Of a DNA stretch of 52,740 bases, positions 4,063 through 50,233 are shown in pieces (positions within the stretch are counted from its first letter, which is position 1; each line of letters opens with the position of its first letter). Below the pieces are notes generated by a model. The model was not told the DNA's origin. It made no database searches and was given only the letters and a program-made list of their open reading frames with translations. Both the position numbers and the translations under genes were made by a program. The DNA lies in the NCBI GenBank assembly GCA_000697665.1, contig KL197738.1:242388-295127 (forward strand). The letters are read 5' to 3'. The DNA is from Jaapia argillacea MUCL 33604 (taxonomy: Eukaryota; Basidiomycota; Agaricomycetes; Jaapiales; Jaapiaceae).

Positions 4063-6650
4063 ATGACTCATCAAATAACGGCGACCGCTGCCCACTGTAC
4101 ATTAATGATCAATTATAGCTCTCGTAGGTTCTCTCTCCAACCGGTGATCCTGCCTAATTCTGATATTCCAATCCCAGTGTCTTCGATAACGTTCTTGGTC
4201 TGGGATATCCTGCTAACATTCGACGAGGAGGTCGCCTATATCTGGCCGTCCGTTCCAATTCTTCAGTCATAACCGAATGGACCAACTGACTTCACCCCCC
4301 AGCCAACCCCAATGGTCACCGTCGAAATGGCTCTTCCTCTTTACTCGGTACTTCTCACTCGCATGCCAGATGTCGGTCTCTCACTTCCACCCTCGCGGCC
4401 TTGATTTTGACCGGCTCATTTCTTTTGATGTCCTCAGAGTATTATACCTGAGGTCTCTCGGCGTATTCGGGACATCTCATCACTCCCACCATTCATGTCT
4501 CTGGTGGCTGGTCTTCCAATCGATATCGCTCCAAGCATTGATGACAGCCATCGAGCTCATCCTCTCGATCAGAGGTATAAACCCCCCTCCAACCGTTTCC
4601 TATCACCCGCTCACGGTACTCAATACCTCCACAGTTTACGCGCTATACGCCGGTAGTCGACATATTAGGATGTTCATCGTAGCTCTCTTCACTTTCGAGT
4701 TCATCATGGTCATACCCTGCTTATCAATCTCGCTCTCCCGAACACGGTTTGCAGCTGGTTGTACACCGATAGCAACAAAATCGAGTATGGTATTCCTCGC
4801 CATCTTAGCGCAAGTTACCATTGACCCCCTCCTTTCTCTGCTCGTTCAACTGACCGATTCTTGGCGTCCCTAGGATGACATCCTTGATAAACCAATTAGT
4901 CCTCTTCGTCTTGGCGTTATACAAATCGGTCAAAGCGATTCGGATGACGCAAGGGAAGAGTAGAGTAGCGACTATCGTGGCTCGCGATAGCTTGTGGGTT
5001 TTCTTCCTCATCACTCGTATGTACCCGCCCTTTGGATGATTTCAGGTTCCGTCATCAACTGAGATTCACCCTAGTTATCCTAGTACTTGAAGGCATGCTA
5101 TACCAGTTTCTCGGACCTGTGATGCAGACCTGGATGTTTACGTGAGTTATCTCACCTTTTCAACTCTTTACTCTCTGATCAATATTCACTTGGGCATCCA
5201 TTTAGCTGGGTGATGTCGATCTTCACATTCTCGGTAAGACCTCCCACCAGGCCCCTCCACCTCACCGGGAACACATTCTCACTCGGGTGCGATGCACAGA
5301 GCTGCCGACTCGTACTCAATATATGTCGCTTAGGAGCGGCGAGAGAATCGTCTGATGATGAGGTGGTGTTGACGTCGAACTTGGAAGGCATCTTGTTGGA
5401 CGTATTCGATTCACCGCAGATATCTACGGTTGACTTGACTCGGAGGGCGTGCGATTCTGGGGGAAGAACACGGTTGAGGGTTGCTGCTCACGTCGACGAC
5501 ACAAGTGTGATTAGCAAGGGTTGATGGGTCCCTTTGGATCACTTCACCCCTTGAGATGTTGGGGAACGCGCGCATGACGTCCCCTTAAGGAGAGTTACTC
5601 AGTTCGTGTTTAGTGTAACTACTTATTTGGTGAATGGAGGGTTCGCGTTGTATGGTTATCGACCCTCTCCTAGGCTTGGCTTTTCGTTGAATGGCAAAGG
5701 TCCCATAAGTTCGCTCCACGAAATATTTTGGATGGCTGGGCTGATGTGATAGGATGCTACGACCATCGGGCATGTACGAATAAGTAGCGACAGATTCATT
5801 TTGTAGGAGGTCGGACTCATCATCTTTAAGCGCACCTGTCGGGCCTCCCATAAATTAAGCTACTCTGAATGCAAATGTCAACATCCGTCGAATCGTTTAT
5901 GGTATTGAGGCGAAATTGTCCGAGGACCACAGAGGTGGACGACATATTCGCAGAGCAGCGGGATGAATGATGTCAGGCGCTGGCCGAGACGCCACGGGAA
6001 AGGCTAATGGCAAACGCCTCCTTCCCACTCGGAACTGATAAGGGAAAAGTGGCCCCTCTGAGAGATGGGCCACACTCCGTGAGCCAGCAATATTTCGGTA
6101 TCGTAGATCGCTGAGATCTGATACTCGTGTATTTATTGACGAAGGAGTGGTCCGCTGGATCCGTCGAGTGTGGTGAAGAGATTTCGTAGTGTCTGTCCGA
6201 CGATGAATATCCATACATTGGTTTGTGAGATTGGAGATTTCGTTGTCTGAATGACAAACTCGCCCTCCCGAGAGCGTGAAGTACTAGCACCAGTATGTTC
6301 TACCCTTCTCTCAAAGGAGTTTATTGTCAACTTTTTTCGGGTTCGTCCAGGTCCCGTACCGTGTGTTCGGGTTAGGACGAGCAACCTATGGCGCAGTCGC
6401 AAGGTACGACCCGTCAGTATTCTGAGCCTCTCGACTTTTTGAAGGATCGCACTCGTGGTATAATTTCTTGAAACAGGATCAGGTCAGGGTCCGGCCAGCG
6501 AAGATAGACCAAGGAGTTCAGGTTGGTTGTATGCACATTTCGAGGTGTAACAGTTCGCGTGAGACGGAAGAATAACAAGACGTACGGTGCAATGCGCTGC
6601 TACTTAAGCTTGTCATTCGAGCCCCAACTTGAAGGTTAGCTTCCGAGGGT
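3613..6650. repeat. Tandem duplication unit B
   Basis: Second copy of the 3.07-kb unit. The junction lies near 3600-3630, where sequence matching the end of unit B (about 6610-6665) passes directly into sequence matching the start of unit A (about 540-560). This is the structure of a simple head-to-tail duplication. Confidence 0.85.
4063..5524 (+). CDS. DUF6533 multi-pass membrane protein, copy B
   Basis: Tandem paralogue of the gene at 995-2447 with the same exon layout: 4063-4123, 4178-4247, 4303-4371, 4438-4574, from 4635, about 4874-5016, 5075-5141, 5206-5233 and 5300-5524. The DUF6533 core (SSITFLVWDILLTFDEE, YIWPQPQWSPSKW) and later helices are kept. The last intron is 66 nt here against 65 nt in copy A, so it is length-variable and not coding. 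The acidic tail differs by substitutions and one in-frame insertion near 5430. The same unresolved exon join occurs between about 4800 and 4874. Open frames are retained in both copies, so both may be functional. Confidence 0.75.
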
Positions 6651-17659: not shown

Positions 17660-19944
17660 GATGAGGGTTTAAGATCTCGAGCAAAGTTTTGCACATGAAT
17701 CAACACGAGGAGTACAGCTGCTTTCCAGCAGGCAAGCTGTGATAGAGCCTACGAGACACCAGAGACGCTGTCCTAAGCCCAGATCAGAGGTTGGTGCTGG
17801 ATAACCGGTCCTGGAGGAAATGTCGCCTGGAGTTATGTCTATTGCGAGGGGGGGGGCACTGGTGAAACATGCTGCAAGGAATGGTGCCCATCATCGCCAC
17901 GTTACGCCAGGCATGGGAAACAAGGGCCCGATTGTGAGGGGAGTGACGGCGAGTGACGGGAATCTGTCGAAACTGGTGATGCTTCGCCATCCACGACTTC
18001 AGCTTGCCTTCTGCGTTGTCATCCTAGAACCTTGATTGGGAGGCGATGTACCATTTTTGATCATCACGATCACGCTTCGGTGAAAGTGAGCCGGCACTCA
18101 AAGTGTCATAATATAGGATATCACGGTCAGTGTCACTGTCAAGCGCTGGGCTGGAAGGGCTACTAGTGCCGACAGCTCCTACCACGGACCTTCAGCGTCA
18201 ATTAATTGTGGGATCTTGGAAGCCAGCTCAGGAAGTTGTTGAACAAAAGGAGTTCCCAATTCAGCAGGGTTAAGAAATCGTTCCGTCACCGTCACAGAGA
18301 ATTTCCTGGCTAGGGTTGCAGGTCCAACACCTCTTCTAGAAATCCGGCGTGCCTTCAGCTGCGTTGTAACCTCACAATCTTTTGGGATCCATCTAGATGC
18401 TCTTTATCAGACGCGGACCCTGTACTACTCAACGAAGTACACCTCCTGGATGCTAGTCAAATTTATACAGGCGAGCAACTTACAAACGATCTGTGACTAA
18501 GTCACACATATTAGGCTCCCGCATCTTTTTGATGGGTTGTTTCGGCGAAGCAACAGCGGTCTCCGAGCCAACATGTGCGCTCCGTTGCCTCCCTTCTGTG
18601 GAGTTTCGTCGAAGAATCGGGTATGGCAGAGGCCAGTTTCTGAAAAAACCATTTAGGCTTGCCAAGTCGATCAGATATGACCAACCGTCCTTTCCGTTCC
18701 TTTCCGCGACCGATTAGAGCCAGGAGGTACAATTGTCCGCACACGCAGGTACGATCTATCGCGAGAACCTGGACAGAAATATTTATCAAACTACCTCCGT
18801 TGACCCTCGTTCGTTTACTCTACGCGAGCCGTTTCGTGAATGATCGTACAATAAGAAAATATTCACAACCTGGCGACGAATCCACGCTTCCCATAGTTCC
18901 CCGCTACGGGGCGTACGACCATCCTATATCCACCCAGGTGAAACAGCTGGAGCGAAGACAACGTCCAAACGCAGAAGTGGCGTCCATTCGGAGATAGACA
19001 CTCTGAGGGGAATCAAGGGACTCACATGTGGGGTCTCTTCGAGGCAGATAACGTGGAGATGACACAAGGGAGGTTTGGGTCATGGGTGCTTACATGAGGA
19101 TCGAGGTCAGTGATTGAAGTCGGTGGACGGAAGCACGTCGTTGTGTGGGGAGATCCTGTAACCTTATTAAATAAGGCCTGTACTAATTGGAAAACATACC
19201 CCTCTCCACCGAAATAAACATCGAACGAGTCCATTGGGAGGGAATCGTGGGGATGGCTGGCATACAATGTTTGTGAAGCTCAGAGTTCCGAGAAGTCCTG
19301 TTAAAGAGTTGGCTTCTCATTTATAGGAAAGTTGGAGAAAGAAACTTATAAGTAAGCGTTGTAGCAGACGGACGCAGCCGGCAGCGATGAGGCAGACTTA
19401 ATTATATCCGGTGCTACTGACTCTCCGATCCGGCGGAGGAATTGTCGGTGTCGGTGACGGACCTGTCACAAACGTAGTAAAATGAATCGTATTTTGGAGT
19501 GCACATTGCCAAACTGCTCACCGTGGGTAACGATCGTCAAACGTTGCTAGTTCGGTGCGATAAGGGTGACTGCCGGATGTGTATGGAAGTAGGCATTGAT
19601 GCTTTGTGTGGTCGGTGAGACGTGAAGCGAGGGATACGAGGCCAACACAGGACATCCATAACGCAACGAAAGCAACGAAGCGAACGAGAGGAACGAAAGC
19701 AATGGAAGAAACCAACAACGAAAGCAATGAAAACAATGAAAACAACGAAAGCAATGGAAGAAACGAAACAACAAAAGCAACGAAAGACAAGAGATTAAGA
19801 ACATAGCGTCGGCAGCGAAAGCGAAGGATATGGATCGCATGAGAATCGAAGAAAGCACTGTGAAGTAAATTAAGAACGACTAAGGAAGGAATGCAAATGA
19901 CGAAACGAAAGCGAATGACGGTTACTAGGTGATGGAAAGACTCC
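17660..19944. other. Intergenic part of duplication unit 2
   Basis: No gene supported. Open frames are short and not shared with the duplicate. A purine-rich low-complexity tract occupies about 19650-19795. A G-run of nine lies near 17850. Homology to 12709-15104 is patchy, most visible near 18100-18300 and 19480-19590. Confidence 0.45.
19650..19795 (+). repeat. Purine-rich low-complexity tract (AACGAAAGCAATG type)
   Basis: An irregular array of 6- and 12-base variants such as GAAAGCAATGAA, AACAACGAAAGC and GAAACAACAAAAGC. One strand is almost entirely A and G with regular C. The opposite strand therefore reads as runs of Phe, Leu, Ser and Val in long open frames (19518-19858), a composition artefact and not a membrane protein. 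The matching place in unit 1 (about 14830-15000) is similarly purine-rich but not repetitive, so expansion occurred after duplication. Confidence 0.7.
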
Positions 19945-45938: not shown

Positions 45939-48206
45939 ATGTCTGCCATCCAAGAGGTATCCAGAGTCATCAACGCCGATGACAATGGTCCATCCGTACC
46001 CCGCAGCGGAGCCATCGATATCATGGCGCTTCGAGCCAGCTGCCCTCAGTTCCGAATCCTCGTCATCGGGAAAGCTAACGCAGGGAAGACAACCATCCTC
46101 CACAAGGTATGCAATGCAACACCCGAGACCAAGCCGATCGTCTATGATCAGAACGGAAAAGAGGCATGTAGAACCGATCTTCGGGGTTGGCAAGCGAATG
46201 GTGCTGAATGTCTCTCAGTTGATCACGAAGAGAGGATTCTTGCGCAAAGCAGTTTCTGCGTTCCAGAAACCGACTGCAGAGGTATGCATTAACGTGGTTC
46301 AGCGGTTCATAGATGAAAATAACTTCTTCGTTGTAACTTGTGTAGCGCGGGGAGCACAATATCGAGCATCAAATCACCTATCCTGGAAGTCACTTCATAT
46401 TCCATGACTCCCGTGGGTTTGAGTCAGGATCGGAAGGAGAGATGGAGGCTGTTCGGAACTTCCTTAAGGAGCGGTCTGACCATGAGCTGTTGAAGGACAA
46501 AGTGCATGCAATTTGGTAAGAATTGATGTTCCGAGAATATCGTGACTTGGCTACAGCTGGAGGATTTCAGGTATTGTGTTCCAATGGATGACTCCCGACC
46601 ACTTTCAGACCCGGAATTGAGCTTTTTCAAGGAAGGAACTTGGGGAGGTAAGCTTGTCATGTGGGAATGAGGTAGAGTCTAACCTGTCAATCTTCCCAGT
46701 TCCCGTGATTGCAATCTTTACCAAATTTGATGCCCAGATCAATATTGCCTTTGGAAAGCTCTTGGAGGATGGCAAGAGTGATCGGGAAGCACTTCAAGGA
46801 GCATGTCAATATGCTGATAAAATATTTCGGGAGCAGTATTTGTCCAGGTTGAAATCAGTGCCTTATCGGCCAAAGGAATGGATGTGCCTGAGAGGTAAAT
46901 TGAGCTGCTGATAGGCCCTCTCATAAATATATAGCTGATAAGATATCCACAGATATGGATAAACCAGAAAATAACTGTTCTGAACTTGTTGAAAGGACTG
47001 CTGCTGCCATTGATGATAATGGTTTACGCAGCTTGTTCATTTCAGTACAAGCAAAAGATTTAAAACTCAATATCAAACAAGCAATTAGGTAAAGTGCTGA
47101 GATTGGTTCTATGATAACACATTGACGATGATGATGGTTTAGAGAGGCTCTTGAGGTGACTGAACAGACCATTGATAGAGAACTGGGGTTCACAGTACTA
47201 CCATTGTTTCCAAAATTCTGGGTAAGTTCAAAGGAATATTGGCTAGTTGAAGTGACATACTAAAATCTACTAGCGAGTGAGTGCTCTGTTGAGGGTGGTC
47301 TATCTTGCACTCATTACCTGACCTGCTTTTGCTGGCTTTCATTGCCTACTAGTGTGAGTGCTCTGTTGAGGGTGGTCTATCTTGCACTCATTACCTGACC
47401 TGCTTTTGCTGGCTTTCATTGCCTACTAGCGAGTGAGTGCTCTGTTGAGGGTGGTCTATCTTGCACTCATTACCTGACCTGCTTTTGCTGGCTTTCATTG
47501 CCTATTAGCAAGTGAGTGCTCTGTTGAGGGTGGTTGCCATAGCTTAATTCATTTGTTCAGATTGTATGCATATTCAACATTACTATGTACCATTTCATCC
47601 CACCTTTACTCTTACAATATATTCTAGGATTCATGTCTTAAGGACCTGAAGTCAGCTCTTACAGGGTTTGACCATGCTGATTCTGTGAGAATTTATTTGC
47701 TTACTCCATTATTCAAACTCCTCATCAATCCCTTTAACCAGTCTTCTACTTCAATCAACATCTATGCCCTTGCTGGTATTTTTGATCAACTTTATACTTT
47801 TATTACTGTTCTCATTATATTACCAGTTATGCTTGTGATTGCTGAGCATGCTGAGAAGTTACCTGAGCCAGACTTCTCCAAAGCATTTACCAAGGCCACC
47901 AGTGAATGCCAAACTTCTAGAACAATCCTGAAGCTTCATGGCTGTCTTCAAGACACCTTCAACTCTAATAGGTCCAAGGAGAAGACTCAAGAATGGCTTT
48001 TTCAACAAGTGATTCAAAACTTAATGGTACACCTTACTTCATGCAACTTAGTTTCACTAAAACATTGTGCTTTATAGACTCTTTAAATCTCTTCTTTTCA
48101 GGCCTCAGATTCAACTTTATGTTTTGTCTGTACATATTTTGGTGATGCCTTATGTTGGATAGTTTTGTTTGTCATAAGAAACTTCAACTACATAGCAGAT
48201 GACTGA
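45939..48206 (+). CDS. G-domain (P-loop GTPase) protein with C-terminal membrane segments
   Basis: Nine exons (45939-46167, 46253-46281, 46346-46515, 46571-46647, 46700-46894, 46953-47088, 47143-47221, 47628-48026, 48102-48206) total 1419 nt and give 472 aa in frame. Motifs run in GTPase order: FRILVIGKANAGKTTILHKV (P loop), GSHFIFHDSRGFE (G3, DxxG type), WYCVPMDDSRPL, and VIAIFTKFDAQ (G4, TKFD). This fits the G-domain-containing proteins common and often amplified in Agaricomycetes; their role is unknown. The C-terminal exons hold hydrophobic segments (YTFITVLIILPVMLVIAEH and LCWIVLFVIRNF), suggesting membrane anchoring. The intron 47222-47627 is 406 nt, far longer than its neighbours, because of a tandem repeat. 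From about 46300 on the DNA is AT-richer than the rest of the window. Confidence 0.82.
47274..47540 (+). repeat. Tandem array of about 78-bp intron-like units
   Basis: The motif GTGCTCTGTTGAGGGTGG starts at 47281, 47359, 47437 and 47516, giving periods of 78, 78 and 79 bases; the fourth unit is cut short. Each full unit runs from GTGAGT through CCTGACC and a pyrimidine-rich stretch to CTACTAG or CTATTAG. The spacers between one unit's AG and the next GTGAGT are CGA, T, CGA and CAA. The array sits inside an intron of the G-domain gene, directly after a complete intron-like piece (47222 to a first CTACTAG near 47273 with TACTAAA as branch site). Confidence 0.9.
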
Positions 48207-50233
48207 AAGCCAGATACTGAAATGAGATTAGGAGGAACAGGAAGCAGAGCAGGAGAAACTTCAAGATATACATAAAGGTGCTACAATACAGCTTGCAAGT
48301 CACTGGCCAGTTACAATGTTGATTGAGACAACATCTTGAGCAGGAGACTGACATTTGTACCAACTTGGTCAATGTGAGGTGTAAAGAATAATTTTAAATA
48401 CATACTCATAGAGTGCAAGTATAGTGATGATTAAAATATATGTAAAGATAAGAGTGGTGAGAAGCTGAGCAAAAACTCAAAATAATAATCACAGTGAGGC
48501 TCAGCATGGATGCATCCGCAGATGCACCCACATCCATACCAGCAGGTGAGTACAAATCATTATCAGCTACCAACATCTGCCAGGTAAAGCTGCCTTGGAT
48601 ACCTGTATCCATGGATTCAGATCCACAAATATTCAGTTACTTGTGAGTCCAAGTACCTGTAAGTATTGAATGCACCCACTTTACAGGTACCCACATGTAC
48701 ATACAGGTATCAGTCCAGTAGAAATCAACAGATCACTTTATTTTGCTACTCAGATCAGTCAAGCCCCAATCCAGGTATCGTCTCTTCATGACTCTCCACA
48801 GGCTCAAGGTCAGGTAAATTGTCATCCTCATCAACACCTAAAGAGTTGTGCCAAACATCCCACACTGTTCAGCTATTTTTTGCCTGTATTAATGCACCAG
48901 CCAAAGGGACAAAGTGCATACAATAACACATCAGGCCCTGCAATATCTTGTTGGCAGCTATGGTATAGTAATGTAGCAGCTGATATGGGGTAGATGGAAC
49001 AATGTAGCAGGGCCAATTGATGGGTAGGGGGGTAGTATAGGGTGAGCCAATGGAGGGGGAATAGTATTGGGTGGGCTGATGAGGGGTTTTATGGTTGGTA
49101 TGCGGTAGGCCGAGGGTAATGGAATGGGTTAATGATGCGGTATGTGGTGTAGTGGGTGACTCTAGGCACCATTGGGATGGTGTTGGGGTCATTTTCCTGG
49201 GTGGGGAGAGATAATATGGGTGGACCCCATGGGTGGGTGAGAGCAATCCTGGGGACACATTGGGATGGTATAGGGAGCTTGTAGAGTGATGTGATGGGTG
49301 ACTCCAGGCACCCATCAGGATGCTGTTGGGGTTATTTTACTGGGTGGAGAGGGGCAATATGGGTGGACCTAGGGTATATGAGGGTGTGTATGGGCAAATT
49401 GGGGATGAGGTATGGGTGGGTGAGAGTGATCCTGGGGACATATTGGGACAGTGCAGAGAGCTTGTAGAGATGCAATGGGTGACTCCAGAGACCCACCAGG
49501 ATGGTGTTGGGGTCATATCCCAGGGTTGAGAGGAGGAATCTGGGTGGACCCCAAGTGTTGGGGATGAGGCAAGGGTGGGTGGGGGTGATTTTAGGGACAC
49601 ACCCAGGATGGTATAGGCAGCTTGTAGAGTGATGTGATGAGTGACTCCAGGCACCCATTGGGATGGTGTTGGAGTCATTTTACCAGGTGGGGAGAGGTAG
49701 TATAGGTGGACCCAGGGTATATGAGAGTATGTATGCAGAAGTGGATGATGAGGTATGGGTGGCTGAGGGTGATCCCAGGGACACATCAGGACAGTATAGG
49801 GAGCTTGCAGGGGGATGTGATGGGTAACTCCACAAACCCATCGGGATACTGTTGGGGTGATTTTCAAGGCTTGGGACAGGTAATATGCTAAGACCTGGAG
49901 ACTGCAGGATGGTATAGGAGACCTTGCAGGTTGACATGGTGGGTGACTCTCATGGTGCTGGGATGTTTCCCCAGGGTGGGGAAAGTTAAGACCATAAAGG
50001 TGCAATAATGTGGAGGGATCTGAAGGGTGAATGTAACCACCTGTTGGGATGCCCATTGAAATAAGCTTCGGCATCAGCACAGTGTGGAGTTGGGATAGGT
50101 ATCAACATTATCAGAGTCAGCATAATATTGGGAATGTCAACTGAATTGCAACTGGAGAGACACATTCAAAGATGCTTTAACAAAAGTGTACTAGGGGTAC
50201 ATGCACAATGTAGGAAGGCAAGGGGTGCCATCT
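48207..50233. other. Repeat-rich intergenic DNA
   Basis: No gene supported. From about 48500 to 48720 there are several CAGGTAC/GTACCTG-type palindromic words (for example near 48653, 48687 and 48705). From about 49015 to 49960 the plus strand is strongly G and T rich and made of degenerate repeats. Long minus-strand frames here are by-products of the repeats. Confidence 0.55.
49015..49960 (+). repeat. Degenerate G/T-rich tandem repeats (about 155-180 bp period)
   Basis: The block TGGGTGACTCCAGGCACCCA, followed by GGATGGTGTTGGGGTCATTTT, recurs in degenerate form near 49145, 49300, 49478, 49645 and 49820. Between copies lie recurring words such as GGGTGATCCTGGGGACACAT and GGTATGGGTGG. Spacing varies from about 155 to 180. 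The strand is very poor in C outside the CCCA words, giving marked strand asymmetry. It resembles a decayed minisatellite. Confidence 0.75.

Follow-up and report, generated by a model that had tools for sequence, protein, structure and literature searches.

How is an intron of 406 nt (47222-47627) built that holds, one behind the other, several copies of what look like complete small introns, and is it removed in a single step or piece by piece? The question is raised by a gene on contig KL197738.1 of the basidiomycete Jaapia argillacea MUCL 33604, in a stretch of 52,740 nucleotides referred to here as the window. The exons of this gene, joined by hand, match the Pfam family MMR_HSR1 (E 2.1e-6, above the family cut-off), and among solved structures GTPases of the EngA/Der and TrmE types are matched no more than weakly, with E 0.0015 at best; neither a NACHT nor an ankyrin domain was found in these exons with Pfam up to E 1. 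A previous reading of the letters of the window (the sequence-only reading) had described a tandem array of 78-bp intron-like units nested inside one intron, for which recursive splicing, tandem insertion of introner-like elements and a minisatellite grown from a piece of intron were all considered. The answer favoured here, with good though not complete confidence, is that small spliceosomal introns, each functional in its own right and with homogenised cores, follow one another along the 406 nt, parted by one-codon micro-exons that would encode a hypervariable peptide. The features of the locus on which this reading is built are collected in Table 1.

Table 1. Features of the array and of its host gene (positions in the window).
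Feature	Position	Strand	Basis
5' exons and introns of host GTPase gene, from ATG at 45939	45939..47221	+	reading frames, Pfam match; exon borders inferred by eye
Last exon before array, ending ...FPKFW	TGG at 47219..47221	+	exon border inferred by eye
First small intron, 52 nt	47222..47273	+	sequence; splicing inferred
Micro-exon CGA	47274..47276	+	inferred from unit family
Intron unit 1, 76 nt	47277..47352	+	sequence
Defective 1-nt spacer T, frame shift if included	47353..47353	+	sequence
Intron unit 2, same as unit 1	47354..47429	+	sequence
Micro-exon CGA	47430..47432	+	sequence
Intron unit 3, one difference (CTATTAG)	47433..47508	+	sequence
Micro-exon CAA	47509..47511	+	sequence
Truncated unit read as 49-nt intron	47512..47560	+	inferred
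Possible micro-exon ATT	47561..47563	+	inferred; ATG in C30b, ATT in C8
Last small intron, 64 nt	47564..47627	+	inferred
Downstream reading frame DSCLKDLKSAL...	47628..48026	+	86% identity with C30b

The array is present where it had been reported. TRF scores a period of 79 bp over 47267-47534 (3.4 copies, 95% matches), and the 19-mer GTGAGTGCTCTGTTGAGGG occurs four times without mismatch, compared with 0.01 expected when up to three mismatches are allowed; none of 100 shuffles reached four occurrences. Three intron-like units of 76 nt are preceded by a 52-nt intron with its own TACTAAA and CTACTAG, as had been recognised, and are followed by a truncated fourth. The repeat itself had thus been seen correctly, and its length has to be corrected to 76+3 nt (once 76+1); likewise the layout GTGAGT ... 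CTGAC ... CTACTAG fits units 1 and 2, and unit 3 ends in CTATTAG instead. The distance of 1-3 bases between the AG of one unit and the GT of the next is accurate, so that complete-looking introns stand back to back, and the length of 406 nt agrees as well; the phase is 0 on both sides, as judged by eye. The last stretch, downstream of CAA, is readable as one truncated unit or as two introns separated by ATT, and an equivalent split is possible in the two paralogs named in Table 1. The frame that follows the array may hold another intron, and two stops occur in it in the C8 paralog.

One unit of the window, searched against the 43.7-Mb genome, finds at least 64 matches in six loci, the window included. 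The presence of the unit in five other loci removes the circumstance that had been said to favour a plain minisatellite, namely a unit found only here. The six loci hold paralogous genes, each with its array at the same position; in three of them the array is interrupted, by the contig end in C53 and by N runs in C8 and C1b. Two exons of the window gene used as query extend the number of loci to 22, and an array of two or more junctions is present in 21 of them, the other (C1c) entering N after its first unit; further GTPase relatives exist outside these loci. Besides the 79-bp units of this first family (F1) there are at least four further unit families, F2 (77 bp), F3 (70), F4 (79) and F5 (78), and the five are dissimilar in sequence except for their splice signals. 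Of 29 stretches examined 28 arrays were counted, C1c being excluded; further arrays on C18, on C22 at 522k, 576k and 597k, on C32 at 215k and 318k and on C49 are outside this count. GTPase exons, in phase 0 by eye, precede 22 of the 28 arrays (six of F1, 12 of F2, three of F5 and the F4 array C32a), and the DNA adjoining C20, C32c and C48 is N or missing. All 128 matches of the F3 unit fall on contig C22, with arrays at 368-370k, 510-512k, 522-524k, 576k and 597-602k; two GTPase queries matched no GTPase exon on this contig, and the host of the three F3 arrays is possibly a second, unrelated gene family. Across the 22 GTPase loci, three exons of the G domain hold no stop in aligned codons and have median dN/dS values of 0.11-0.25, by which the G domain is under purifying selection. 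Arrays are frequent at contig ends (C53, C48) or at N runs, which may be assembly gaps, as is expected since repeats break assemblies.

In the 28 arrays the introns are mostly 67-76 nt long and each is followed by one codon. With junctions located by the last and first 14 bases of the units (up to four mismatches in each, the spacer being ignored), 311 of 316 junctions over the five families are 3 nt in length; the five exceptions are the single T of the window, a GTAC in C24a, a TAGACA in C13 and two places in C32a, where units overlap once and an N run intervenes once. To judge from the DNA, these would be several one-codon exons in tandem. In recursive splicing and in stwintrons the splice sites abut or interrupt each other and there is no exon between them; recursive splicing with zero-length exons does not match junctions that contain 3 nt instead. 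The same length stands out when the whole genome is searched for two consecutive junctions of the form YAG-NNN-GTRAGT, with the pattern read backwards as control: 386 places compared with 13. Spacers of 4 and 6 nt, tried as alternatives, were rejected with one and two matches against 14 and one in their controls.

These numbers bear on the reading of the locus as an intronic minisatellite, by which one large intron would be removed in a single step, the repeats would be non-coding and the triplets would vary for mutational reasons. Intronic minisatellites consist of tandem units in variable copy number, and the F1 paralogs conform to this, being tandem repeats that range from 2.5 to 23.4 copies by TRF; the spacers that would break the frame if included, 1 nt in the window and 4 nt in C24a, point in the same direction. 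The specificity for 3 nt over 4 and 6 nt, and the common design of five unlike unit sequences, are by contrast hard to accommodate. The constancy of the spacer length was also considered as proof of coding and set aside as weak, because length changes (four exceptions other than gaps in 315 spacers, 44 in 266 cores) are about equally frequent per base in both.

Among the 311 triplets are 41 different ones, including one stop, and all 20 amino acids are represented; read in order they give peptides such as FGYREFRGARGEYFRDVDEPGGK in C30b and CTRDLEYMDLDLDLDNKEYD in C3. One stop among 311 compares with 15.8 expected when positions are shuffled within families, and none of 5000 shuffles is as low. 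When each triplet is counted once per array, one stop remains among 177 (10.6 expected; 1 of 10,000 shuffles as low), and the depletion is weaker when each is counted once per family (1 of 102, 4.7 expected; 273 of 10,000 as low). The single stop, a TGA in C22a, stands ahead of a unit disrupted by an insert whose ends are LTR-like. This insert, about 430 nt long and located near the start of C22:367900-370700 (L076, minus strand), splits an F3 unit, has ends of the TG...CA type (TGTTAG...ATAACA) and a possible ATGGT repeat on either side, and resembles a solo LTR. A third-position C is rare in the triplets (5 of 311), which might be expected directly ahead of a 5' splice site. In the window copy, inclusion of the single T would shift the frame and skipping it would leave R-R-Q-(I); the window array is best read as one short and in part defective representative of a system that extends through the genome.

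A CTNAY site, picked by eye, lies 28-31 nt before the unit end in all five families, and donor (position 3 omitted), branch site and acceptor have a mean variability of 0.051, compared with 0.159 elsewhere in the units (Mann-Whitney p 4e-11), a roughly threefold reduction in a test that is somewhat lenient, as the anchors favour conserved unit ends and the choice of branch sites by eye also helps. The F4 acceptor (0.145) is not below the F4 remainder (0.108). Within arrays, the first two triplet positions differ pairwise by 0.59-0.80 and the cores by 0.10-0.19 on average, with a few core columns also variable (0.5-0.6). At a core distance below 0.03 (33 comparisons of units), divergence per site is 22-fold faster in triplets than in cores; when the core limit is raised to 0.05, 108 comparisons, 60 of them from F4, give on average 1.42 differences in the 3 bases of a triplet, and 221 ordinary 3-nt windows of the cores give 0.25, the most variable window reaching 1.4. 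The unit pairs behind these comparisons are not independent. Stops, signals and divergence rates together do not look like mutation that falls regardless of splicing and coding. Unlike in intronic minisatellites, the units retain their donor and branch site, and the variation is sharply confined to a stop-avoiding spacer between AG and GT; a plain minisatellite, the third option of the sequence-only reading, is contradicted by these observations and we consider it unlikely. That reading overlooked the spacer as the variable and seemingly coding part of the array.

The speed at which the triplets change could also be ascribed to a dedicated process that mutates or replaces the triplet only (in F4 only positions 1 and 2, NNT), as a diversity-generating element would. 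The F4 triplets, which end in T in 39 of 39 cases and are near saturation at positions 1 and 2 (0.72), would suit such targeted rewriting, as would the observation that units with at most four core differences share just 17 of 103 triplets on their upstream side and 15 of 104 on their downstream side, slightly more than distant units do. Duplicated blocks speak for ordinary mutation plus selection: in C30b (AGA/GGA, GAA/GAA, TTT/TAT) and C32a (CCT/CCT, TAT/CAT) the triplets were carried along with the block, some kept and others one base off, and rewriting appears the least probable of the explanations weighed here.

Between loci, cores have diverged less than the synonymous sites of the linked exons: in every one of the 82 pairs of loci the core distance is below dS, with medians of 0.119 (mean over cores, uncorrected) and 0.477 (dS, corrected). 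C4, C24a (twice) and C30c have identical cores of 74 nt and not the same triplets next to them. It follows that units were exchanged or homogenised from locus to locus, or spread recently, and the triplets stayed different. Both observations are also compatible with introner-like elements, i.e., mobile introns inserted repeatedly into coding sequence and leaving old coding sequence between them as triplets, and signals less variable than the remainder suggest that every copy would carry functional splice signals, as such elements should. Dispersal is not seen, contrary to what the sequence-only reading had allowed for: with F1, F2 and F3 units as queries no single copies were recognised in other genes, the hosts of the F3, C20, C48 and C49 arrays being out of view, and the matches sit in tandem arrays except for two isolated partial F3 matches on C22 at 414k and 577.8k, whose host is also out of view. 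Insertion exactly every 3 nt and in phase 0 is hard to explain by mobility, and block duplications carry triplets along, which makes insertion of introners very improbable.

In the chain of small introns and one-codon exons that we prefer, each unit would be spliced as an intron and each triplet retained as a codon, stepwise, and the GTPase would thereby gain an internal peptide, 2 to about 35 residues long and different from one paralog to the next. Array length would change through tandem and block duplication, intron cores would be homogenised within arrays and between loci, and codons would change faster than their surroundings, most likely via mutation plus diversifying selection. The introns may serve as homology cassettes for recombination, by which single codons would be duplicated and shuffled, and as each exon is one whole codon, the skipping of any of them keeps the frame and makes combinatorial splicing possible. 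More speculatively, near-identical intron cassettes spread among GTPase paralogs, with only the intervening codon free to change, might form a codon-shuffling diversity system in which duplication, recombination and frame-safe skipping create a very large, possibly somatic peptide repertoire on the GTPase, akin to a receptor repertoire; we regard this as doubtful. At the level of sequence the architecture, the triplet length, hypervariability, stop avoidance, splice-signal conservation and low core divergence between loci are established, and from these we infer splicing itself, the inclusion of the codons, selection as the cause and a role in recognition.

The closest known system is the nank (NACHT-ANK) family of Tuber melanosporum, with alternatively spliced codon-sized microexons (Iotti et al. 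2012, as cited in PMC4986451, PMC3689799 and PMC10197012). It is an expanded gene family with 3-bp exons in their tens, a proposed means of diversifying a sensor protein, and alternative splicing is reported there, whereas the present arrays are known as DNA. The host here differs, being a GTPase of the MMR_HSR1 type in a basidiomycete and not a NACHT-ANK protein (the F3 host aside), and the measurements made here cover five families of units, the hypervariability of triplets and the homogenisation of introns. In fungi, NLR genes, those of the HNWD family among them, possess internally conserved, hypervariable repeats (PMC4986451) and are comparable in their concerted evolution and in the confinement of diversification to few codons, but the repeat there is protein (WD, ANK, TPR), whereas here introns are homogenised and a single codon varies in each unit. 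Fungal introner-like elements (PMC4457414) likewise amount to many near-identical spliceosomal introns in a single genome; the introns here are instead in tandem at one gene position, with no dispersed copies recognised in unrelated genes for the F1, F2 and F3 queries.

According to PMC11121469, functional microexons were undescribed in filamentous fungi until that study. In a literature search that left subscription journals and preprints mostly outside, no codon-sized microexon arrays were found in a GTPase family or in a basidiomycete, and such arrays appeared there only as citations of the one truffle gene family. Codon-sized microexon arrays are thus already known, and the GTPase and basidiomycete case is new relative to the literature searched. 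With a second case, from a different protein and probably a different phylum, these arrays would become a recurrent solution and no longer a curiosity, and five unit families in one genome permit comparisons of 3-nt exon splicing, of intron homogenisation beside diverging codons, and of selection versus a targeted process. Gene prediction will probably miss single-codon exons of this kind.

Elsewhere in the window, matches to Pfam DUF6533, a basidiomycete family, lie at 1106-1180 and 4177-4248, two of 46 genome-wide, in keeping with a basidiomycete genome. Tandem 9-mers of the CAACGAAA type, also scored at a period of 52 bp, occupy 19663-19790, and degenerate G-rich repeats (GGGTGACTCCAGGCACC and similar), recognised by eye, extend over 48960-49500, just downstream of the GTPase gene.
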